Part shown: positions 13,299-27,670 of the stretch, piece by piece
Layout: each line of letters starts with the position of its first letter
How positions within the stretch are numbered: the first letter of the stretch is position 1
NCBI RefSeq assembly: GCF_000189775.2
Contig: NC_015555.1
Location: 1,747,001 to 1,811,000 of the forward strand
DNA from: Thermoanaerobacterium xylanolyticum LX-11
GTDB lineage: Bacteria > Bacillota > Thermoanaerobacteria > Thermoanaerobacterales > Thermoanaerobacteraceae
Direction of reading: 5' to 3'
Length of the DNA stretch: 64,000 nucleotides
Notes under the pieces: generated by a model
What the model was told of the DNA's origin: nothing
Seen by the model: only the letters and a program-made list of their open reading frames with translations
Database searches by the model: none
Position numbers and translations under genes: made by a program

Positions 13299-13333
13299 AA
13301 TTATAAGTATTAAGAGAAATGGAAGGAAGAAAT

Positions 13334-14185
13334 ATGAGCCAAAAATACGATATAACGATGAAAAATATTTTTTCGGATATGACTGATGACATAATGAGTT
13401 ATTTTCTTGGATTGCAATATACAAAGATTGATGAACTTAATATAGAATTTGCAAGAATAGAACGAAGGGACAGCGACATGATATTCAAATGTACTACTGA
13501 TAAAGGAAATGTCGCTGTGCATATAGAATTTCAATCAGAAAATGACGGAAAAATGCCTTACAGGATGTTACGATATTCCATGGAGATAATGGAAAAGCAT
13601 AATCTCTTACCATATCAGATAGTCCTATATATAGGAAAAGACAATGTAAAAATGGCAAATAGCTTAAGCTACGACTTTGGAGAACAAAACACATTAGATT
13701 ATAAATACAGGATAATAAATGTTGGTAACATAAAATATACTGATGTTGTAGGAACAGACTATTATGACTTGTATTCGCTTCTTCCATTGATGGACCAAAA
13801 TAGAAGGGAAAAAGAAGGAGAAAAATATTTAGAAAGATGTGTTGAGGCTATAAAAGATATTCCTTTGGACATAAATAAAAAGAAAGACATAACATTTAAG
13901 GCTGAGATATTGTCAGGTATAGTTTTTAAAAGAGAAGTTATTGAGAAAGTTTTTTCGGAGGTGGTAAGAATGTTTAGAATTGAAGAATCCGAAACATATA
14001 AGATGATAATCGAAAAGGGTATTGAAAAAGGTATTGAAAAGGGTATTGAAAAGGGTATTGAAAAAGGCGAAAAAGAAAAAAGCATAAAAATTGCTAAAAA
14101 ATTATTAGAAGAAGGTATGGATATTGATAAAATAGCAAAAATTACAGAATTAGCAAAGGAAGAGATAAAAAAATTAATAAATTAA
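13334..14185 (+). CDS. Rpn-family PD-(D/E)XK nuclease (recombination-promoting nuclease/putative transposase)
   Basis: This 283-residue protein belongs to the Rpn/YhgA-like family. The PD-(D/E)XK core is visible as D48 and E65-x-Q67 (HIEFQS), followed by the family motif MPYRMLRYSMEI. Rpn proteins are Ca/Mg-dependent DNA endonucleases linked to recA-independent recombination and, in recent work, to phage defence. The C-terminal quarter contains IEKG repeated several times, predicted coiled coil, encoded by a 12-bp tandem repeat. The ATG at 13334 has GGAAGGA upstream; an in-frame ATG at 13319 lacks one. A strong internal ribosome binding site and ATG lie at 13957-13972. The gene converges on the Wadjet operon and shares a bidirectional terminator with it. 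Confidence 0.85.
   Translation: MSQKYDITMKNIFSDMTDDIMSYFLGLQYTKIDELNIEFARIERRDSDMIFKCTTDKGNVAVHIEFQSENDGKMPYRMLRYSMEIMEKHNLLPYQIVLYIGKDNVKMANSLSYDFGEQNTLDYKYRIINVGNIKYTDVVGTDYYDLYSLLPLMDQNRREKEGEKYLERCVEAIKDIPLDINKKKDITFKAEILSGIVFKREVIEKVFSEVVRMFRIEESETYKMIIEKGIEKGIEKGIEKGIEKGEKEKSIKIAKKLLEEGMDIDKIAKITELAKEEIKKLIN
13970..14185 (+). CDS. Possible internal small protein, C-terminal Rpn fragment (RpnS-like)
   Basis: An in-frame ATG at codon 213 of the Rpn gene is preceded by GGAGGTG (13957-13963) with eight bases between GGAGG and ATG, far stronger than the site of the full gene (GGAAGGA). Translation there gives 71 residues starting MFRIEESETYK. This product holds the IEKG repeats and the helical C-terminus but not the nuclease core. 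Some enterobacterial Rpn genes make such an internal short form, which restrains the nuclease. That this gene does so is inference from the start site alone. Confidence 0.55.
   Translation: MFRIEESETYKMIIEKGIEKGIEKGIEKGIEKGEKEKSIKIAKKLLEEGMDIDKIAKITELAKEEIKKLIN
14015..14066 (+). repeat. 12-bp tandem repeat in the Rpn gene
   Basis: About four and a half units of GGTATTGAAAA(G/A), encoding GIEK repeats. The units differ only at the last base of the lysine codon or the next glycine, so copies are nearly identical and could change number by slippage without shifting frame. Confidence 0.9.
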
Positions 14186-14192
14186 AACAAGT

Positions 14193-14240
14193 AATGAGCA
14201 TAACAATTCAAAAACTAATTTGTTATGCTCATTTTTTTAA
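14193..14240. terminator. Bidirectional terminator between rpn and jetD
   Basis: Perfect 14-bp stem AATGAGCATAACAA (14193-14206) with TTGTTATGCTCATT (14220-14233). T7 follows on the plus strand; the minus strand has a shorter TTGTTTTAATTT tail. It serves the convergent rpn and jet transcripts. Confidence 0.85.
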
Positions 14241-15518
14241 TTAACTCATTGACAATAAATCTTTAATGATATCATCAAGAATAAGCTCTTGATATCCAGC
14301 TTTTTTCAATAATCTCATTTTGTCTGCTAAAGGCTTTAATTGAGCCATATCGATTTTATCTATCATTTTAAGCCTTGATTCAGTCAATGTCTTATCTGAT
14401 AAAGCTTTTATGTAATCTTCAACATCATATCTCCAAAAATGAAATCTGTCAGGATATCTCTTGAAAAGTCTATGTGCTATCTGTAATCCTTCGGGGTCAA
14501 AATCACCTGAATAATATATATCTGTACCATTTTTATATAGCATATCTAAAAGGACAAGCAGAGATAATCTGGGCTGGCCATATGCGCATACAAGTGGAAC
14601 AGGCTTCCTAATAAAATCACATACGGATAAAAAAACACCTGGATTTTCCAATACAAATACTTTTTTGGATGGGCTCTCGACCTTATCCAACACGCTCAAA
14701 TTGTAAAGCGGTATTTGCAAAACTTCATTGCATTCATAAGCAGCTTCAAACACCTTATTACACTCGTCTTTGCTATATGCCAAAAGCCCTTTAAGCGTCA
14801 CAAAATTCGATATCTCATCAATCACTATGCCAGCTTTATATAAAAGCTCGGCAACCTCCTCAGAATTTTTCACCTCATCGAACCCAAAAATCGTAGCCAA
14901 TGCATTTATAAGCATTTTACCACAGTCAGTGTTTACATCGAATCCATGCGGGTCTCTAGTTATATGGGATGAAAAGACTGGCAGCCTTACCTTCTTTCCT
15001 TCGTAAACCGGAAGTCTATTTAATGCATCACAAACGTATTTTATATCTTTTTTGAGCAAAGTGCGATCACTATCATATCTCTGATTTATCGTTTTTACAC
15101 CAATAGCTTTATTTTCATAAATAGATTTCAACCACTGCCAGCACTTTGTCCCTTCATACTCAGATAAAAACTTGTTAAAGAACTTTTCTTTTTCATTTTC
15201 ATACTGATACATGTCTTCTTTTTTGCTGGTCAGCTTTTCATCAAAATACGATTCTAATATATCCATCAAACTGTACTCTTCAAATCTCGTATTCAAAAAT
15301 GTCTCTGCAAATTTATTGACATCGATATTTACTGATTTTCGCTTGCTAAAGTCTTTTTTAAAATGGTTAGATAATACTACTTTCTCAGAATCCGTTAAAT
15401 CATCAAGTTTGATTACACCGCCTATCCTTCCTATGCTCTTATATTTATCCCTAATAGCTTTAAATATCCTTTCATACCCTTTATTTCTTCTAAAAAATGC
15501 TATATCATCGGCTTTCAT
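14241..15518 (-). CDS. jetD: Wadjet nuclease subunit JetD (DUF2399/TIGR02679)
   Basis: This 425-residue protein is the topoisomerase VI A-like nuclease subunit of Wadjet. The C-terminal Toprim fold is visible: E291 in VFVLENPG, then YYSGDFDPEGLQIA with the D339-x-D341 pair that binds metal. The N-terminal part is helical and probably docks on the SMC complex. In Wadjet, JetD cuts closed circular plasmid DNA after JetABC has extruded it. The start lies 4 bases after the jetC stop with AAGGAG upstream. Its size and neighbours match the TIGR02677-02680 gene set; I think this is the type II Wadjet but am not certain of the numbering. Confidence 0.9.
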   Translation of the reverse strand: MKADDIAFFRRNKGYERIFKAIRDKYKSIGRIGGVIKLDDLTDSEKVVLSNHFKKDFSKRKSVNIDVNKFAETFLNTRFEEYSLMDILESYFDEKLTSKKEDMYQYENEKEKFFNKFLSEYEGTKCWQWLKSIYENKAIGVKTINQRYDSDRTLLKKDIKYVCDALNRLPVYEGKKVRLPVFSSHITRDPHGFDVNTDCGKMLINALATIFGFDEVKNSEEVAELLYKAGIVIDEISNFVTLKGLLAYSKDECNKVFEAAYECNEVLQIPLYNLSVLDKVESPSKKVFVLENPGVFLSVCDFIRKPVPLVCAYGQPRLSLLVLLDMLYKNGTDIYYSGDFDPEGLQIAHRLFKRYPDRFHFWRYDVEDYIKALSDKTLTESRLKMIDKIDMAQLKPLADKMRLLKKAGYQELILDDIIKDLLSMS

Positions 15519-15522
15519 CTAC

Positions 15523-18500
15523 TCACCTACTCCTTGTAAATGCAACCTCATCGTACGAAAAATCATCGATCTCTTCAACACTTTTTTCAATTCCAGTAAC
15601 TAAACGCCTAATCTTTCCATCCCATTTATATCTTACCAACGACACATAACTTGCATTTTTAGGCCTTATAAGCTCGTATATAGATAGCTCTGGCACTGTA
15701 TCATAATCGCCCCACAGTACTTGTGAGTTCATGATGAAATTCAATCCCAAGTCTTCTATAAGTTTAAACATATCTCTTATGTTGTTGTCATCCACTCCTG
15801 CAAAAGCTTCATCAAGCGATATAATCTTTGGAGCTTGTGATGACGCCGATTGATACATAGAGTACACTGCTGAGAAAAGAGGTATATACATAGCCATAGC
15901 TTTCTCTCCACCGCTAAACTTGTAAAAGGCATTGTTTGTAAGTTCTTTGCGATTTTCTCCTTCTTTTTTGAAATACAACTTAAACTCAAACCAATCTCTA
16001 TAGTCGAGAATGCTCTTCATTATCTGGTGGAATGTATCAGTATTGCTGTTTTCCTCATATATTTTCTTTGCACTTTCAACCTTTGATCTAAAGTGATTTA
16101 CTACTAAATTAAAATCTTCTTCTTTCATCATGTCTGCATCAAGCTTTAAAAGCTCTACAAGCTCTCTTGTATTTAGCTCTTGCTCATTTGTAGCAGCCTT
16201 TGGCTTCCATTCCAATTGAAACTTAAGACCGCTTGACGTATCACGCTGAGACATTAACTCATTCATCTTTTTAACCCATTCTTCTGCTTTAAAGATTCTG
16301 CTTCTTATTTTACGCCCTACATTGTGCATGATTATATCCTCAAAAAGCTGCCTATCCTTTTCTTTCATAAGGTTTTCGTTTATTTTTATATCTTCATCGA
16401 TCATATTATAAAGCCCATAAAGGGATATCTTTTTGTCATTTACTTTCGCTGTTATCTGATATCTTCTTAAATCTTTATATATTTCTTGATAAGTATCAAT
16501 ATCTGTATCAGTTTGTTCAATTTCTACCACATCTAATGAAAGCCCATATTCTACAAGCTCATTTATACAGACATAAAATGCATTTCTTATTTTTTCTGTG
16601 GCACTGTCTTTATCAAACTTTGCAAACATCTCTTTGTACTGTGATTGAATAGTCTTCGCTGCTTTATACATATCATCTATATCTGTAAGCTCATCAACGA
16701 ATCCAAATATTATCTCATCTTTTAACCCTTTATGGTATATGTTTAAAATATCCTGATTTTTTCTTATTTCTTCTTTTAACCTTTCATATTCTTTTTCTTG
16801 CAGGACTACTCTCTCTTTAAGTGCAGCAGTTTTAGCAGTTAAATCATTTATTTCTTTTGGTATGTCGTCAATCCTTTTTATACACTGTAAAAGCTCTTTT
16901 TGAAGATCTTCTATGCCAAGTTTTTCAATGGTTTCTTTTAATACATTGATCTTTTCTATGCTGTTTTTTATCTTCGCATCTAATACATCAATCTCAAACT
17001 TGTAATTATCAATGTCATACTCAATATCTTGTTTCTGCATTTTTCTAGTCTCTGCACTTCTTAAGACAGTAATATAGCTATTGTAATTTATCTGTAATTT
17101 CTGTAGGAGATTCTTGTACTCATCTAACTGTTCTAAAGCACTTTCGTAAGATTTGGCATCTGCATGAATGCCAATTCCAGACGTCAACTTCCTAACAATT
17201 GCTTTTTTTTCTTGAAGCACATCAAAAAGCTTCTTAGCAGCAATTGTCGCATCATTCAATTTAATCTCCGTGAATTTTTGATTCGATTGCGCTTCTTTCA
17301 ATTCCTTTAGCGCTTCTTCCAAATCATCTTTCCCTGGAAAATTTTTATATTCTACGTCTAAATCACTTAGCTGAGATTTTATTGACAGTTGTCTATCATT
17401 TAGTTCTCTTATTTCACCTTTTATGGCGTCTATTTCTTTAGATATTGATGATATCATTTCATCTCTAAAGCGCCGTCTCGACTCAAAACCTATATACCTT
17501 GACTTTACATTTCCTACAGCTTTCCCTTTTAAAACCCCTATTCCATACGTGCCATCATCATTCACATATGTTGCATTCTCTTCCTCATAAATAAATACAT
17601 TGCTTAAAGCATCTGAAATTTCATCTAAGCCGACACCGCTATTTGAATCGACAACATCAAAATACTGCAGTACATTAAGTTTCATGTTAAAAGTCCCTGG
17701 AATGATATACTTATCTGCCATGTCCTTATCCATTTTCATTGCTCTATCAATATCGCTTCTTGACACAATAAGTGCATCCAAGATTCCCATGTCCATAAGA
17801 GCTGATTCAATATTTCCCTTTGTATCATCATCTATATCATTTTTAAAGTCAATTGCTTTATAAAGTGGCACATATGCAATTCCTGCTTTATCCAATCTAT
17901 TTCTGTTTTCTATAACTTCCACATTGCGAGGTGGTTCTGGATCATATGTCTCTCTCCACTTTCTTAATTCCTCTTCTTTTTCATCCAGCTTAGAATTTCT
18001 TAAGTCCAATTCATTTTTAACTTTAATCAAGTCCATCTGAAACTTTTCTCTGATATCCTCGTAGGGCTTCCTTACAAATGATATAAGATCTTCATAAGTA
18101 CTTGTTTTCCCGTATGATAGAACTATTCTGGAAAGTTCTTCGATTTTTTCTCTATTAAGCTTCAAAAATCTATTCGTATCTGACCAATCGTAAATTTTAT
18201 CAATAAACCTGTTTTTTTCTTCATCAAGCAAAATCTCAATTTCGTTGACTTTTCGTTTCCAGTCCTCGTTTGCCTTTCTCAACCTATCTTCTTCTAACAA
18301 TGCGTCATTGTATTTTTTGTTTGCGTCTACCTCGTCATTAATGGCATCTAATGCCTTTTTCACTTTTCCTGTATACTCTTTTAGTGAATTGCTCCAAAAA
18401 TCAAAGTCAAAATCCTTACCATAAGACTTTTTTAATTCTTCTTCTGAGAAGCTATGCTCATCAAAATTGACTTCTTCAGATATAGAAGCCATATCCAAAA

Positions 18501-19692
18501 GATTTTCTTTTATTTTTTCATCAATGCTATATTCTCTACTGTAAAGCTCCTTTAGCTCTTCCTCTATTTGGAAACATTTCTCTTTTTTCTTTTTAAGCTG
18601 AATTTCTTTTAAATCCCTATCTTTTCTAAATTGTTTTAAAATATTTTCTTCTTCAACAAGTTCTCTTTGTGTATTAAAGGCATCATTTTTTCTCAGTTGA
18701 ATTTCTTTATTTTTCAAAGCCTGAAGTTCACTTTCAAGTTCTGATATTCTATCTTCACCCTGGAAAACATCTTGATTATTTTTTTCAATGCTTTGCAGCA
18801 ATTCATCACTTTGTTTTTGTACCTTAGACAGCTCACTTTTCTGCACCAAAAGTTTGTCTGCCTTATAATAAAGCATAAACTTATTGTACCTATCATATTC
18901 ATTTTTAAGCTTCTTTAAAGATTTCATATTTTTATTTAATGAATCTAAATGCAGCTTTATCTGATCCATATTTTCTATCGTCTCAGACATCGACCTTAAA
19001 TCGTCATCTGTCAAAGGTGATAGAGAGGCATTCAATATGTCGTAAATACGACTTGGTCTTAAATCATTGGAAAGTTTTGGACTCCTAAGCTGTATTAAAA
19101 GCTTTATAAGTTCATCATAGTCATCAATGTTTGAAAAACCAAATATATTCTTGTTTACTAATTCCATATATTCTCTTTGCGTATCAACTACTTCTCCGCC
19201 ACTTCCAATGTAATTTTTAAGCTCTTTTTTGGATAAAGGTATTTTGACTCTTTTCCCATCAATACCTGTCTCTAATTTATAAAGCAATATGTCAATGCCT
19301 ATTCGCCGTCCATCTTTAATGACAAATCCCCAAAAATCCATGCTTTGATGTCTTTTCGCCTTAAGACCTATGCCTATAGAGATATAATTATCTTTATTTT
19401 CCCTTTTAAATTCCATATAAAGATAGCCAGTTCGCTCGTCAATTCCATTTACATCTTCTTCACCTAAAAGATAATCCTCAAGCCTCCTGGCCCTTGAGCC
19501 AAATGAATCCAGTCTTTCAGGGCTTTTATTGCCATCTAAAAGAAGAGGTATGAAGCTCTGCATAGTTACAGATTTTCCTGAACCATTGGAACCTCTTAGA
19601 AGAAGCCTCCCTCCAGAAAATTCGAATACTTCATCATCATAATACCAAAAGTTAAGAAGACCAGCTCTATTAATTACCCATCTATCATTCAT
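15523..19692 (-). CDS. jetC: Wadjet SMC/MukB-like ATPase JetC (TIGR02680)
   Basis: This is a 1389-residue SMC-like ATPase. Walker A is at residues 34-41 (GSNGSGKS). Long coiled-coil arms fill most of the protein, with a hinge-like globular part near residues 600-740. The C-terminal head has the ABC signature FSGGEKAMAMYIPL and Walker B IISLDEAFAGVDD. JetC is the loop-extruding motor of Wadjet. The ATG at 19692 is chosen because AAAGGAG sits upstream and the head strand begins there (RWVINRAGLLNFWYYD); an in-frame start at 19731 would overlap jetB further. The true overlap with the jetB stop is 8 bases, a coupling signal. Confidence 0.93.
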   Translation of the reverse strand: MNDRWVINRAGLLNFWYYDDEVFEFSGGRLLLRGSNGSGKSVTMQSFIPLLLDGNKSPERLDSFGSRARRLEDYLLGEEDVNGIDERTGYLYMEFKRENKDNYISIGIGLKAKRHQSMDFWGFVIKDGRRIGIDILLYKLETGIDGKRVKIPLSKKELKNYIGSGGEVVDTQREYMELVNKNIFGFSNIDDYDELIKLLIQLRSPKLSNDLRPSRIYDILNASLSPLTDDDLRSMSETIENMDQIKLHLDSLNKNMKSLKKLKNEYDRYNKFMLYYKADKLLVQKSELSKVQKQSDELLQSIEKNNQDVFQGEDRISELESELQALKNKEIQLRKNDAFNTQRELVEEENILKQFRKDRDLKEIQLKKKKEKCFQIEEELKELYSREYSIDEKIKENLLDMASISEEVNFDEHSFSEEELKKSYGKDFDFDFWSNSLKEYTGKVKKALDAINDEVDANKKYNDALLEEDRLRKANEDWKRKVNEIEILLDEEKNRFIDKIYDWSDTNRFLKLNREKIEELSRIVLSYGKTSTYEDLISFVRKPYEDIREKFQMDLIKVKNELDLRNSKLDEKEEELRKWRETYDPEPPRNVEVIENRNRLDKAGIAYVPLYKAIDFKNDIDDDTKGNIESALMDMGILDALIVSRSDIDRAMKMDKDMADKYIIPGTFNMKLNVLQYFDVVDSNSGVGLDEISDALSNVFIYEEENATYVNDDGTYGIGVLKGKAVGNVKSRYIGFESRRRFRDEMISSISKEIDAIKGEIRELNDRQLSIKSQLSDLDVEYKNFPGKDDLEEALKELKEAQSNQKFTEIKLNDATIAAKKLFDVLQEKKAIVRKLTSGIGIHADAKSYESALEQLDEYKNLLQKLQINYNSYITVLRSAETRKMQKQDIEYDIDNYKFEIDVLDAKIKNSIEKINVLKETIEKLGIEDLQKELLQCIKRIDDIPKEINDLTAKTAALKERVVLQEKEYERLKEEIRKNQDILNIYHKGLKDEIIFGFVDELTDIDDMYKAAKTIQSQYKEMFAKFDKDSATEKIRNAFYVCINELVEYGLSLDVVEIEQTDTDIDTYQEIYKDLRRYQITAKVNDKKISLYGLYNMIDEDIKINENLMKEKDRQLFEDIIMHNVGRKIRSRIFKAEEWVKKMNELMSQRDTSSGLKFQLEWKPKAATNEQELNTRELVELLKLDADMMKEEDFNLVVNHFRSKVESAKKIYEENSNTDTFHQIMKSILDYRDWFEFKLYFKKEGENRKELTNNAFYKFSGGEKAMAMYIPLFSAVYSMYQSASSQAPKIISLDEAFAGVDDNNIRDMFKLIEDLGLNFIMNSQVLWGDYDTVPELSIYELIRPKNASYVSLVRYKWDGKIRRLVTGIEKSVEEIDDFSYDEVAFTRSR

Positions 19693-20821
19693 TTTGAATT
19701 GCTCCTTTAAAATCATTTCGATATTCACCAATAAACTTTCCTAAGATCGGCATCAAAGTATATGAGTGGGTATCCTCATTGTATATTGCCATTTTCCAGC
19801 TTTTCATAAACTCTGTAATCTCATCAAATAATTTTTCATCACTCATATCAGTGTAAATCTTGCTCCATCCGCTTTTAAACCTACTCTTTACATAAGATAC
19901 GATGTTCATAAATTGCCCTTCTGTAATTTCAATACGGTCATCTATACCTACATTTAAACTGCCGGAATCCATCATATCTCTTAAAACATAAGCTATTTGA
20001 AGAACTATGTCAGATATATTTTTATTGTCCGGGAAATAAGATGATGCATATTTATTCTCATCAAAAATTATGTATGCAGATGTTTTATGGATGTGCAGTT
20101 GTGCATCGAGATAATCATCAAAATCTTTTTCTAATGTATTTCTGTAGTTTTTTATGTAAATAAAATCTTGATCGTCAGTTCCCTCATAGTAGACGGCTGG
20201 AGATAGAAGCAATTTTCTGTAAACTCTATGCCTTCTCTCAAGGACTTTGTTGTCCTCATACCTGTCGTCTTTTATAAAATCTTCCAACGTCATCTCTTCA
20301 TTTATTTCACTGCTCATAATTCTCATAAAGTATCTTGAAAGCCCCGTATTTTCATATAAAACCTCTACATCGCGACTATCGGCAAATCTTTCATGCTCTC
20401 CATCATCAACTTTTATCATTTTCATTTTTTCTGCAAAATTAAGTACCCTGACAAGGGATTTTCTATGCTTAAACAAGGTCCAATCAACACTTTCCATGCC
20501 TTCGTACTGCATCTCAATATACTCCGTTATATTTGAAAGTATAAATTGATCACCTATGCCCATATCCTCTAAAAACGCAAGGAGAAGACATAAAAACGCA
20601 TAATCCATCGAGCTCTGAAACTCTTCAATCCCCATCCACTTCTCAGCATCACCAGGTATTTTTTCTAGCTTTATAAGAAATGGATTTACGATAAGACGAT
20701 ATCCTAACTTATCCTCTACAAATGATCTTAATTTCTTTTCATTGTCACGTATTCTATTAAACATTTCCGTGTCATCTTTTGTAACCCAAAAGTTTTCTAA
20801 AAGGATTTTAAGTTCTTCCAA
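19685..20821 (-). CDS. jetB: Wadjet MukE-like subunit JetB (DUF2398/TIGR02678)
   Basis: This 378-residue protein corresponds to the MukE-like winged-helix subunit that bridges the kleisin and DNA. The order jetA-jetB-jetC-jetD, the size, and motifs such as DYAFLCLLLAFLEDM and LSRYFMRIM support the TIGR02678 assignment. I see no catalytic motif, as expected. Start TTG at 20821, 17 bases after the jetA stop, with GGTGGTG upstream. Confidence 0.88.
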   Translation of the reverse strand: MEELKILLENFWVTKDDTEMFNRIRDNEKKLRSFVEDKLGYRLIVNPFLIKLEKIPGDAEKWMGIEEFQSSMDYAFLCLLLAFLEDMGIGDQFILSNITEYIEMQYEGMESVDWTLFKHRKSLVRVLNFAEKMKMIKVDDGEHERFADSRDVEVLYENTGLSRYFMRIMSSEINEEMTLEDFIKDDRYEDNKVLERRHRVYRKLLLSPAVYYEGTDDQDFIYIKNYRNTLEKDFDDYLDAQLHIHKTSAYIIFDENKYASSYFPDNKNISDIVLQIAYVLRDMMDSGSLNVGIDDRIEITEGQFMNIVSYVKSRFKSGWSKIYTDMSDEKLFDEITEFMKSWKMAIYNEDTHSYTLMPILGKFIGEYRNDFKGAIQNE

Positions 20822-20838
20822 CTAAAAACACCACCGTA

Positions 20839-22323
20839 TCAATTTAAAAACTCTATCGTTACATCAGGCATTTCAAGAATCCCATCTGTACATTTTAGAA
20901 CTATCGTCTTGTTCCTTGAAATGCTGACTTTGTATGTCCTTCCATCTTCTGATTTTGCTATGTTTTTAGGCTGATTTAAGGATTTGCTTATCCAATTTAA
21001 AAGGGTTGTCCTTATAAAAGGCTTAATTACTGGCAACTCTCTCAGTACAATCTTGCCGTCAATTATATACTTTGATATTTCTTCAATCTCACTGTGTCTT
21101 TCTTCAAGGTACTGTTTTAAGCACATCTCTTTTTCTTCTACCCTATCTATTATAGCATTTGTCTTTGTGGATTGTGTATAATTTCTCGTCTTTGGTCTTA
21201 TTAAGAATTTACATGGCATATCATCCCACACGCTTTCATTTATGCTTTCAGTCTTTTTGTCAAAATCGCCATATAAATGTCTCGTGTGAAAAACTCCAAA
21301 TACAACTGATGAAAGCTTATGTGCATAGTTTATATCATCAGTATTTGCAAATATCTTTGAAAGCTTTATATACTCACTTTTCCTGCTGGCCGTCTTTAAC
21401 CTGTTTTCAGAAATTCTGGCCGCATACATCGTGATCTTTCTTATTATCTCATTTGATATTTCAAGAAGCCTGTACGCTTCACTATCTTCATCGCTGTTTC
21501 CTCTAAACCAAAATACTATGTTTTGCCATTTGCTTAATATATTTTCTTTGACATCATTAATATCAAAATCTTTATCCAACCTCGGTATGTTCTCCTCATA
21601 AAGCAGCAATTTTTCTACAATATCTTCTAATGACTTTTTATCAAGCTTATTTAAAAGCGATACGATAACTTGAGAAAATCTCTGCAAATCCTTTATATAT
21701 CCTCTTAAATACTCAGTAAGCTTGTCTTTGTATATTAAGAAAGCATCTGTCTTCATAAGTTCATCTGCATTTGAACTTTGCAAGCTGGCAATGTAGTCTA
21801 TAGCGTTATGATAAATATTTTCAAAATCTGAAGTAAAATCTTTCCACCATCTATATACAGCTTCTAAGTCGTCACTTTTAGATATATCGTCAATTTTCTT
21901 TAAGCTTTCATACAATCTTTGGAATAAAGATGGCTCTAAAGAACCACCATAACCCTTTATTTTCTCGAGATTAATTGTCATCCTTTCTATTTCTATCGAA
22001 TACTCGCTAAGCATGTATCTAAATTTTTTATTTTTAAATTCTTCTGCAGATTGAGCTCTTCCAGTGTCCTGCTCAGCAATCAAGTTTTTCCACTCAGTCA
22101 GCGACTTTAAATCCTGCTCACACTTATCCAATGTATAGTCGTAAAACAAATCAAAACTTTTTACATAATTATACACATCCTCTTTAGTCAGCCAATATCT
22201 AAGCCTCTCATAATTTTGATAAAAATACCGCATGATGAGGCGATACCTTGATGCATTATCAGCAGTAAGGTATCTTGCCTCATCTATAGGCTTTATGACA
22301 TTAAAATTTATTTTATCAGTCAT
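20839..22323 (-). CDS. jetA: Wadjet kleisin/MukF-like subunit JetA (DUF2397/TIGR02677)
   Basis: This 494-residue, mostly helical protein has an N-terminal winged-helix-like part (ASRYRLIMRYFY...WLTKEDVYNYV), a long helical middle and a C-terminal beta part. It matches the TIGR02677 kleisin subunit that links the two JetC heads. ATG with AAAGGTGAAA upstream. It begins 12 bases after the stop of the MIF-like gene and has no promoter of its own, so both are on one transcript. Confidence 0.88.
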   Translation of the reverse strand: MTDKINFNVIKPIDEARYLTADNASRYRLIMRYFYQNYERLRYWLTKEDVYNYVKSFDLFYDYTLDKCEQDLKSLTEWKNLIAEQDTGRAQSAEEFKNKKFRYMLSEYSIEIERMTINLEKIKGYGGSLEPSLFQRLYESLKKIDDISKSDDLEAVYRWWKDFTSDFENIYHNAIDYIASLQSSNADELMKTDAFLIYKDKLTEYLRGYIKDLQRFSQVIVSLLNKLDKKSLEDIVEKLLLYEENIPRLDKDFDINDVKENILSKWQNIVFWFRGNSDEDSEAYRLLEISNEIIRKITMYAARISENRLKTASRKSEYIKLSKIFANTDDINYAHKLSSVVFGVFHTRHLYGDFDKKTESINESVWDDMPCKFLIRPKTRNYTQSTKTNAIIDRVEEKEMCLKQYLEERHSEIEEISKYIIDGKIVLRELPVIKPFIRTTLLNWISKSLNQPKNIAKSEDGRTYKVSISRNKTIVLKCTDGILEMPDVTIEFLN

Positions 22324-22823: not shown

Positions 22824-25730
22824 TCAATCAATCTCTGGACTTTTTAATGATTGCACCATATCGACTTTTTTAAGTTGGAGGTGCACTACGACGCTTACGA
22901 GAATAGAAAATCCCATTGTTATAAGTGCAGAATACAAGAAGCTCATCGGTTCAATATTTCTTCCAAACATCAATATATCAACTTCTACTGTGGACATGAG
23001 ATACCTGTGAAGAAAGACACCCATCACAAACCCTAATAAAATTCCTATGATTGTCAAGATAAAATTCTCTCTCATGACGTACAGAGAAACTTCTTCATCG
23101 TAAAATCCCAAAACTTTCATCGTGGCAAGCTCTCTTATCCTTTCTGTTATATTGATATTTGTCAGATTGTAAAGAACCACAAAAGCAAGCGTACCTGCAG
23201 ATACAATCAAGACTAATACCACCGACAGCAAGTTATTTACAACGTCCTGAAATGTCTTTTTAATAGATGATATAAAATTAACCGTCATTACAGCTTTTGA
23301 TTTCAATATCTCTTGAGATATTTCATCTTCTTTTGTGCTTGAAGTGTCAGTAATCTTCGACAGTATCTCGTTTGATGTCATCTTCTTATTAAACACTTTC
23401 TCATACAAAGATGAGCTCATATAAACGTAATGCTGCAAATAATTTTCTGCTATGCCAATTACTCTCGCTTTTACTTTCCTGCCATCACCAATGTTTAAAT
23501 AGATATAACCTCCACTCCTCACTCCAAGAATATTTGCAAGTTTTTCAGTTACTACAACTCCTTCGTCCGTCAATGGTATTTTATCACCAGTAGTTCTGCT
23601 TCTTAAGACTATAAAATCTTTAAATTTTTCCTTGTCGTCAGTGACGACTAAAATTGCGCTTTTTTTAACTTTACCTCTTGTAACGTCCACATTGGATTGA
23701 CTAACCATGATGCTTTCTTTTATATTTTTGTCATTATTTATAGCATTTGTAAGCTCATTTAAATCTTCTTTAGAAGCGTCACTTTTAAAAGTCGTTATCA
23801 TCTGATATTTGAAGATTTGATTGAACTGCTTAGAAACAATGATATTTATTGAGTCCCTTATTCCAAATCCAGTAAGCAGCAGTGCAGTACAACCACCTAT
23901 ACCTATTACGGTCATTAAAAATCTTCTTTTGTATCTAAATATATTTCTGGCAGTCACTTTCTGCATAAAATCAAGTCGAGACCAAATAAATCTCATATTT
24001 TCCAACAAAACCCTCTTACCTGCTATCGGCGCTTTAAGCCTCATTAATGATGCGGGAACTTCTTTTAAATCGTTAAATGACACCAATGCTGCAACGACCG
24101 TAGTAGACACAAGTGCAGCCAAAATTCCCACAAAAGCATAATATGAATTAAATTCTGTAATCACAGGTGGCAGTGTATACATCATCCCATAGGCATTGAA
24201 AATTATTCTCGGCAATATGTTAAAACCCAAAAGCAAACCTACAAATCCACCTAATATTGTTGCAACAGATGAATAAACGACAAATTTAAACATTATTGAT
24301 AATCTACCATAACCTAAAGCTTTTAAAATCCCCATTTGCGTTCTCTGCTCTTCCACCATCCTGGTCATAGAAGTGAGGCTAACTAACGCTGCAACAAGAA
24401 AGAAGATAGTCGGAAATACATTTCCTAATGCTTTTATCCTGTCTGCTTCATCCCCATACTCTACATAACCTATATTAGATTTTCTATCTAATACATACCA
24501 TACAGGCTTTTTTAAATCTTTAAGTTTCTCTTCCGAAGAAGCAATTTTGGCTTTGGCATCATTTATCTCATTATCAAATTCTGATTTATTAGCCTCATAT
24601 TTCTTATAATTATCATTAAGCGTAAGGAAAGCATTATTCAACTGTTTTGCTGCGCTATCTATCTGCATTTGACCTTGAATCTTGGCTTTGCTTAAAGCTG
24701 ATTCTTGTTCTTTTATGTTTTCCTGTGAAGCCGCCAATTGAGCTTTGGCACTTTCAAGCTGCGACTTCTTTTCATTTAACTGCACCATATTCTCATCTAA
24801 TGCTTTTTTGTTTGCATTAAGTACATCTATTTGTTTTAATACACTTGCGATTTGCGCATTTAATTCATCTACCTTTGGTTTTAGTTGTTCTTTTAAAGAT
24901 GGATTATTGTTTATCTCAGAATTCAATTGATTTAGGGAACCATTAAGCTCATCGTACATCGAATTTAATTTTTTTATGTTTTCATCATAATTTAATTCTT
25001 TTTCTTTTGCCTGAATCTCAGCTTCTGCATTGTTTAATTTCATTTCATTTTGTGATATATTTGCTTGAGCATTAGCAATCTGATTTTTTCCATCATCAAG
25101 TTTTTTCTGATTTAAAGCCATTTGCTCATTAAAACTGGCTTGTTTTTTGTTTAACTGGATTTGAGAATTTTGAAGTGTAATTTTTGTCTCATCAAGCTTT
25201 GCTTTAGCATCAGCCAATTCTTTGTTGTACTTAGCTTCTTTGTCTTCAAGAGCTTTTTTAGCATCGTCTATTTCCTTTTGAGCTTTACTTTTAATTTCTT
25301 CATATCTGATTTCGCTTCGAGTTTTACCTAATTTTATTAAATCATCTTTTACAGGACGAATAAAATTGTAGTATTCATCTGAAAATGTGGAAAATTTCTT
25401 TGCACCATCTACCAATACATCTATTTCAGTATACGCATCCATTGAAAAATCAGATTTAGGTACCATCATAAAAGCCTGTATCTGTCCATTTCCCACATTG
25501 CTGGAGCCTCTGTCTCTTGAGATGTAATAAGGCGTTTCAACTACACCTACTATCTTGTATTTTTTGTTTTTTATATTGTCTTGATTTTGAGAATCCAAAT
25601 TTATAGTTACGGTATCGCCTATTGAAAATCCTAAGTCTTTAAGAAATTTTGTCTCCACCACACACTCAGAATTGTTTTCAGGAAATCTGCCTTCTAAAAG
25701 TTTAGGTTTATTTACATAACTCAAACTTCG
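22824..25730 (-). pseudogene. FtsX-type ABC permease, C-terminal 969 residues, cut off by an IS
   Basis: This is the larger part of a permease interrupted by the IS at 25731. It begins in an extracellular MacB-like domain (SYVNKPKLLEGRFPENNSE). A predicted coiled coil of about 250 residues rich in KAKLDE and AQANISQ heptads follows. Then come two FtsX permease blocks, one near GDEADRIKALGNVFPTIFF and one at the C-terminus (ITERIRELATMKVLGFYDEE). Together with the N-terminal piece at 27297-27670 the gene would be about 1094 codons. A GTG created at the IS border (25731-25733) could open a shortened product, but it lacks the first membrane helix and has no ribosome binding site. Before insertion it worked with the ABC ATPase encoded upstream, probably in envelope export or stress response. 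Confidence 0.85.
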
Positions 25731-25783
25731 CACTTATAAAAGTAGCTCTGTACCTTGATAATTCAATATTATTTGGCTATAAA

Positions 25784-25853
25784 ATAGCATGAGACCTCCA
25801 TTTTTGGTATAATTGAATTATCAAAAAATAAACCAATTGGAGGCTCATGCTAT
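25784..25853 (+). promoter_or_regulatory. Transposase promoter with RBS-sequestering inverted repeat
   Basis: An extended -10 TGGTATAAT is visible at 25805-25813. The segment ATAGCATGAGACCTCCA (25784-25800) is complementary, with one bulged base, to TGGAGGCTCATGCTAT (25838-25853), which carries the ribosome binding site and start. A transcript from the internal promoter would begin near 25820 and lack the first arm; a read-through transcript would contain both and hide the start. Confidence 0.6.
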
Positions 25854-27225
25854 GAATAGTATAACACAAAATTACCAAATTGATAATAAGGTTTCTACTT
25901 CGATTAAAAGTTTCTTCAAAAAATATAGAATTTCGGCTGCTTTAAGGTTATCGAATGCTTACAAAAGCAAGGGTATTCCCGTTATTTCTATTTTCGAGTA
26001 CTTATTCTGTATGATCTTTACCAATAGATCTATGTATATGAATATGCTAATGGGTACAAATCAGGTTGGTTTTAAGAAAGACACGGTTTACAGATTCTTA
26101 AACTCTATTCATATTAATTGGATTCGGTTTACCACTTGGCTTAGTGCACAGATTATAAATGAGACAATTACTGGGTTAACAAGTGACAAACGCGTAAATG
26201 TTCTTATTGTTGATGACTCTTTATTCGAACGCTCTAGCTCTAAAAAAGTAGAACTACTAGCAAAAGTATATGACCATGCTAAGAAAACATACAAATATGG
26301 CTTTCGCCTACTTACACTCGGATGGTCAGATGGAAATACTTTTATCCCAGTCAATGGATGTCTTTTATCTACTGAGAATCAAAAGAATCGTATCAATGAA
26401 GCTATACCTGTGGACAAGCGTTCCGCCGGGTATTTAAGAAGGAATCTATCCCAAACTAAAGCAACAGCCGTAGCTCTGGAATTAATAAAGACCGCTAAAA
26501 AAGCAATGATTCCAGCATCTTATGTATTGTTTGACACTTGGTTCTGTTCTCCCTCTTCTTTGATTGCTATTAAAGAAATAGGCTATGATGTTATTGCAAT
26601 GGCAAAGAAAACATCAAAGATGCATTACCTATATAATGGAATAATGCAGCCGTTAACAGAAATATACAAGCAGAACAGAAAAAGAAGAGGCAGGTCTAGA
26701 TACCTGTTATCCGTGGAAGTTTCCATTGAAAAAGACGGAAAATCTATTCCTGCTCGAATTGTATTTGTCAGAAACAGGAATAATCGAAAAGACTATCTGG
26801 CACTTATTACCACGGATATGAACCTTAACGAGGACGAAATCATTCGTATATACGGGAAGCGCTGGGATATAGAAGTCTTTTTCAAAGTGTGTAAATCATA
26901 CTTGAAGCTCAGCAAGGAATGCAATTCATTATCTTACGATGCGATGACAGCACATACAGCAATCGTATTTACCAGATACATGATGCTTGCACTAGAGAAC
27001 CGTCGATCATCAGATTTACGAACAATGGGAGAGATATTTTACTACATACAGGATGAAATGTCCGATATTACGCTGATTCAGGCTTTTCATCTACTTATGC
27101 AAGTATTCATAGATACAATAACAGATAAACTATCGTTATCTTCAGAACAGCTGGACCAATTACTTGATGCTTTTATGGCTGCGATTCCCAAAGAACTTAA
27201 GGAAAGACTTCCGAAGTGTGCATAA
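25852..27225 (+). CDS. IS4-superfamily DDE transposase
   Basis: This 457-residue transposase has the acidic triad in VDDSLFERS, LFDTWFCSP and the YREK signature YGKRWDIEVFFKVCK (Y-2-R-3-E-6-K), which defines the IS4 superfamily. The ATG at 25852 is chosen because GGAGG lies eight bases upstream; an in-frame start at 25813 would fall before the likely transcription start. The gene looks intact, so the element may still be active. Confidence 0.92.
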   Translation: MNSITQNYQIDNKVSTSIKSFFKKYRISAALRLSNAYKSKGIPVISIFEYLFCMIFTNRSMYMNMLMGTNQVGFKKDTVYRFLNSIHINWIRFTTWLSAQIINETITGLTSDKRVNVLIVDDSLFERSSSKKVELLAKVYDHAKKTYKYGFRLLTLGWSDGNTFIPVNGCLLSTENQKNRINEAIPVDKRSAGYLRRNLSQTKATAVALELIKTAKKAMIPASYVLFDTWFCSPSSLIAIKEIGYDVIAMAKKTSKMHYLYNGIMQPLTEIYKQNRKRRGRSRYLLSVEVSIEKDGKSIPARIVFVRNRNNRKDYLALITTDMNLNEDEIIRIYGKRWDIEVFFKVCKSYLKLSKECNSLSYDAMTAHTAIVFTRYMMLALENRRSSDLRTMGEIFYYIQDEMSDITLIQAFHLLMQVFIDTITDKLSLSSEQLDQLLDAFMAAIPKELKERLPKCA

Positions 27226-27296
27226 TTGTGTAAATTACTATTACTTTTTTCTGGCAAAGCATTAAGTTTTCAAGGAACAGAGTAATTATTTATGTG

Positions 27297-27670
27297 CGAA
27301 GTTTTAGTACATAATTTTTATCATTCTTAATTTTAATTGGATCTACACTTATGACTTTTACTACAAATCCCTTATTATTTTTATCCACCACAGCATCAAC
27401 TGTATAAAATGGATATGCTGATAGTACACCTTTTACAGATTTGATGCTATTCAAATCATCACTTGTAAGACCCATTGTAGATAAAATTTGTACATCAAAC
27501 AAATTATAATCATCAGCGTATTTTGAGGCAGTAAGCTTCATGTCTTGGCTGGCTGCTTTTATTCCACCAAAAACACCTACTCCCATCAACACGATGAAAA
27601 ACAATGATAAAAATCTTTTTCTCGTATTAGATATTTCTCTAAATATGTCTTTCAGCAAAGATTTTCCCAT
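27297..27670 (-). pseudogene. FtsX-type ABC permease, N-terminal fragment
   Basis: The 124 native codons hold the cytoplasmic start (MGKSLLKDIFREI), the first membrane helix (RFLSLFFIVLMGVGVFGGI) and the beginning of the extracellular domain. The frame then runs into the IS end and stops at 27290. The ATG directly follows the stop of the ABC ATPase gene, so the two were translationally coupled. Confidence 0.85.

Follow-up and report, generated by a model that had tools for sequence, protein, structure and literature searches.

The rpn gene and its surroundings

In the window (the whole 64-kb stretch of T. xylanolyticum LX-11 DNA that was analysed) the gene rpnL, coding for a full-length Rpn nuclease of 283 aa (the toxin component of the unit proposed below), extends over positions 13334..14185 of the forward strand. 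Its start was set at 13334 (MSQKYD) according to the homologues, the mechanical ORF opening at ATG 13319, and it is preceded by a weak ribosome-binding site, GGAAGGAAG (13321..13329, forward strand). The product matched TIGR01784 over residues 5-281 with 72.7 bits (curated cut-off 52.1) and PF04754 with 35.1 bits (cut-off 21); with these profile cut-offs passed and the D...ExQ residues present, its sequence places the gene in the Rpn family (TIGR01784 / COG5464 / PF04754). The codons of D48 (13475-13477), E65 (13526-13528) and Q67 (13532-13534), spanning 13475..13534 on the forward strand, specify residues invariant in 19 homologues, which we take, from knowledge of the family, to form a putative PD-(D/E)XK active site. 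The full-length model was of low confidence (mean pLDDT 60) and the fold search made with it gave no informative match.

A second start lies inside this frame. The Shine-Dalgarno box GGAGGTG occupies 13957..13963 of the forward strand, and eight bases lead from its GGAGG to an ATG (13970-13972) that is codon 213 of the frame counted from 13334. The reading frame opened there, rpnS (13970..14185, forward strand), shares frame and stop with rpnL and would code for a proposed antitoxin of 71 aa, whose long first helix includes four-residue repeats (I-E-K-G) encoded by five 12-bp units (14009..14068, forward strand). The position of the box, the in-frame ATG, the codon number and the product length had all been given correctly in the first-pass annotation. 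It had also described the small product as devoid of D48, E65 and Q67, and these three residues are indeed encoded upstream of the internal start, outside the small product.

A complete Wadjet type 2 locus lies 55 bp from rpn in convergent orientation (14241..22323, reverse strand, jetD-jetC-jetB-jetA; PADLOC JetD2, JetC2, JetB2, and JetA2). Although this is a single locus, such a neighbour is in keeping with the published defence-gene surroundings of rpn. Between rpn and jetD an inverted repeat (14176..14250, no strand assigned) with 31-nt arms, 77% complementary, may act as a bidirectional terminator; the terminator scan gave no score to this segment. Farther along, an intact-looking transposase, IS4-like by eye, was found at 25813-27225 (forward strand) amid an ABC-transporter permease region, whose parts at 22824-25733 and 27290-27670 (both on the reverse strand) it may have split. 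The search for an internal promoter that could give a short rpnS transcript returned only consensus matches, no commoner than chance, and that for riboswitches and other Rfam RNAs returned none. Phage-borne rpn or RpnS, considered with counter-defence in mind, did not appear in viral contigs or phage records, and the plasmid search yielded distant cyanobacterial Rpn only.

Strength and conservation of the internal start

Pairing energies were computed against a 16S tail that was the assumed Bacillota consensus. The internal site reached -15.8 kcal/mol vs. -9.1 kcal/mol for the rpnL start, which bears out the first-pass reading of the internal site as the better of the two, and it surpassed the full-length start in every one of 31 copies from the genus and the family. 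How often strong in-frame internal starts arise by chance was judged from the 64-kb window, where this site ranked first among 827 internal in-frame ATG, GTG, or TTG codons of 47 ORFs (runner-up, -11.9 kcal/mol). Purine-rich codons of an A+T-rich gene coding for a coiled coil can mimic a Shine-Dalgarno box, so a fortuitous likeness to a ribosome site had to be considered; nevertheless, GGAGGTG-N6-ATG occurred once in the window vs. 0.02 occurrences expected from shuffling, and this figure, along with the rank of the site in the window and the conservation in homologues described below, already contradicts such an explanation, which we regard as extremely improbable. Over the whole genome the same arrangement appeared 34 times vs. 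two for the reversed control, indicating a true gene-start signal used by the organism; three of the 34 were within rpn copies.

When synonymous codons of rpn were permuted with the protein held fixed, the observed strength was reached in 0.3% of the shuffles, a figure modest by itself because the site tested had been picked as the strongest among 16 internal starts. The same test in members from the phylum, with the best start picked per gene, gave P < 0.05 in 13 of 30; it is weak singly in many of them, their peptides by themselves already favouring G-rich codons. Around the internal site, the RNA was predicted to be only about half unpaired.

Of this rpn subfamily, the genome of LX-11 harbours three copies, two of them intact and one broken, and around 45 copies, full or partial, were found in nine Thermoanaerobacterium genomes. 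For the comparison of the site we used the 42 copies in which the joint was present, with identities down to about 40%, from the genus, the family and further, divergent Clostridia. The heptamer was GGAGGTG in 39 of them, AGAGGTG in two and GGGGGTG in one, and the start codon was ATG in 41 and GTG in the other. The codon providing the first G of the box specified S, M, L, T, A, E, R, or Q and ended in G in 40 of the 42, and the valine codon of the box was GTG in all 42 while nearby residues changed; elsewhere in the gene, the 31 close and family copies used GAG for 25% of glutamates and GTG for 23% of valines. Many close copies are recent paralogues, and the 42 homologues are thus not independent; the divergent set shows the pattern by itself. 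Among six divergent members V210 was the sole one of three shared valine sites with a single codon throughout. Taken singly, the synonymous invariance of E209 was set aside as weak evidence, because four of the 13 other shared glutamate sites were invariant too.

Outside these families, a sample of 26 further Rpn genes from the phylum was compared with their flanking ORFs. The best internal start was at or below -12 kcal/mol in 23 of the 26, in contrast with eight of 52 flanking ORFs, and its position fell between 53% and 84% of the gene length, ahead of the helix with the repeats. The peptides encoded there differed (e.g., NEVIDM and KGGWNM).

These data bear on the proposal that box and ATG are kept solely for the peptide F-x-E-V-x-x-M of the full-length protein, with no second product. 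At the residue level, too, E, V and M hardly vary, and 27 codons of the gene are without synonymous change in the close set, as such a constraint would predict. It would, however, leave unexplained the G that persists at the wobble position before GAG whichever of eight amino acids is encoded, as well as the copy in which E is replaced by G and the box survives as GGGGGTG, and the copy in which M is replaced by V and the GTG still provides a start. Neither does it account for other Rpn subfamilies, which have differing peptides at this joint and yet a strong box, nor for free-standing copies, which have no upstream protein to conserve. We therefore consider conservation for the peptide alone very improbable. 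Had the box and the ATG varied freely among homologues, the internal start would have lost its case; both were kept across the 42 copies, which constitutes evidence that selection acts on the RNA itself at this position.

The predicted small product and the C-terminal modules

The small product was predicted to form three helices (residues 8-47, 52-59, and 63-70), the model being confident from about residue 30 on only. With this model Foldseek ranked the crystal structure of E. coli RpnA-S (7TH0) first (rmsd 0.9, 36% identity, TM on target 0.83, E 0.35), and so did VIA-align over 46 of 46 residues with Z 6.0, a value that is low for helical bundles. By sequence, the 71 residues matched 7TH0 with E 0.006 when used alone and 8.6e-5 as a profile; a designed "CAP repeat" protein outscored 7TH0 in this search, covering the last ~30 residues of the product only. 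Taken with the limits of the model, RpnS resembles the three-helix RpnA-S module.

The first-pass annotation placed the coiled-coil repeat and the C-terminus within the small product, and the repeats are found there, starting at RpnS residue 14 (published range 8-20; PMC10327210). In 26 intact copies the stretch from YKM to the conserved helix measured 12-44 residues, always a multiple of four, and repeat copy number differed among paralogues by whole four-residue units. Avoidance of crosstalk by unequal repeat numbers between paralogues of the same genome was not apparent, the numbers being equal in five of 35 pairs (permutation P(<=5) = 0.90).

What follows the conserved start is of two kinds within one nuclease subfamily, an HTH_7-like module or DUF4351. 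In Moorella, Tepidanaerobacteraceae and related organisms DUF4351 formed the C-terminus behind a conserved nuclease domain, box and start; the internal start of these members lay at codon 209-213 (198 in one with a cut-off start). Furthermore, in several genomes the same ATG opened the frame of free-standing small genes, the upstream sequence being unrelated. The small frame was intact in 15 of the 19 broken or free-standing copies listed, a survival possibly due in part to chance because this frame makes up only a quarter of the gene.

Several single copies were also observed. The third rpn copy of the LX-11 genome (2042411-2043170) is frameshifted in its nuclease part but has retained the box, the internal ATG and an intact small frame of 59 residues. 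In a second Rpn-like cluster of the same genome (about 1879345-1881140, reverse strand), the gene for a divergent protein of 296 aa, which ends in DUF4351, contains an internal AAAGGAG-ATG. Two small DUF4351 genes flank it, and the one coding for 146 aa has its own internal in-frame GGAGGTGATTAAGATG (S-E-V-I-K-M). Three copies of genome G003 (L034, L043, and L046) carry frameshifts of the small frame in the C-terminal helices, the nuclease part of L034 being open; these frameshifts are possibly assembly errors, as the copies are at or near contig ends.

The fold of RpnS also admits another role. It is HTH_7-like, and structural comparison matched resolvase HTH domains as well, so that an RpnS made from the internal start might serve as a structural partner of RpnL, in assembly or DNA binding, and not as an inhibitor. 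Obligate co-translation would likewise keep the start, and the Cas11d/Cas10d pair, discussed in PMC10327210, offers a precedent. Against this, E. coli RpnS inhibits cleavage by RpnL in vitro and relieves growth inhibition (PMC10327210), and RpnS frames kept beside broken nucleases, together with the free-standing copies, fit an antidote better. On balance a structural partner appears unlikely, though less so than conservation for the peptide alone, and RpnS is treated below as a candidate inhibitor.

A more speculative reading, which we put forward tentatively and as somewhat less probable than its opposite, is that, across Bacillota, the internal start sits where a nuclease gene was anciently joined to an antitoxin gene formerly or still separable from it. 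The antitoxin module (HTH_7-like or DUF4351) might have been swapped there as a cassette with its own ribosome site, and might outlive the decayed nuclease as an orphan immunity gene.

Comparison with known RpnL/RpnS pairs

Rpn genes of E. coli make both RpnL and RpnS, and RpnS blocks the toxicity of RpnL, the induction of the SOS response and, in vitro, DNA cleavage (Zhong et al., 2023; PMC10327210). Specificity between RpnL and RpnS is determined by the repeats, and a C. difficile rpn gene also yields an internal RpnS (PMC10327210), so the precedent already extends to Gram-positives. It was to such restraining short forms, known from enterobacteria, that the first-pass annotation had alluded, and the E. 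coli pair answers that description.

The locus of LX-11 shares with the pairs of E. coli (RpnA-E and RpnP2) and C. difficile the in-frame internal ribosome site and start, a small C-terminal product of three helices, and four-residue repeats located 8-20 residues past the start and varying by whole units. Free-standing copies (of rpnS, downstream, in the precedent), DUF4351 as alternative annotation of the small protein, and defence-gene neighbours are likewise found in both. In contrast with the precedent, the host is a thermophilic member of Bacillota, the box is a near-perfect GGAGGTG far stronger than the full-length site, and two C-terminal modules (HTH_7-like and DUF4351) are joined at the internal start; besides, E. 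coli rpn has an internal transcription start, whereas here no internal promoter signal rose above chance. The type I-D CRISPR pair Cas10d/Cas11d also derives a small C-terminal subunit from an in-frame internal start, a likeness of arrangement only; Cas11d is a needed subunit of its system, whereas for RpnS the evidence favours an inhibitor.

Since every testable sequence feature of RpnL and RpnS is present, the published mechanism is the best explanation for this gene, which very probably is an rpnLS toxin-antitoxin unit composed of the RpnL nuclease and an internally started RpnS that would restrain it. The analysis itself established the site, its conservation as RNA, a modular C-terminus and the match to RpnA-S in structure and sequence; translation, binding, inhibition and phage defence are carried over from the E. 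coli work. RpnL (283 aa) would be a PD-(D/E)XK-type nuclease, and the stronger second ribosome site in its gene would direct initiation at codon 213 to give RpnS (71 aa), a long repeat-bearing helix with two short ones. Because the pairing of this site with 16S rRNA is much the stronger, RpnS would be expected in excess over RpnL. Its repeat helix would then bind the C-terminal module of RpnL, which is identical to RpnS, and keep the nuclease inactive until the RpnL/RpnS balance is disturbed, for instance by phage infection. The suggestion that the nuclease carries its own antidote is thus supported by homology, through the conserved box and ATG, the RpnA-S match and the published RpnL/RpnS pairs.

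Although a system of this kind was already known, our analysis shows in addition how widely the internal start is conserved in Bacillota, that it is positioned at a joint for domain exchange and that orphan RpnS frames are retained. The precedent for an intragenic antitoxin, provided by E. coli and a single gene of C. difficile, would now extend to a whole Bacillota nuclease subfamily. These results suggest that many genes annotated as "Rpn family nuclease/putative transposase" may have a second product absent from their annotation, and that antitoxin domains may be exchanged at the internal start as a module boundary.
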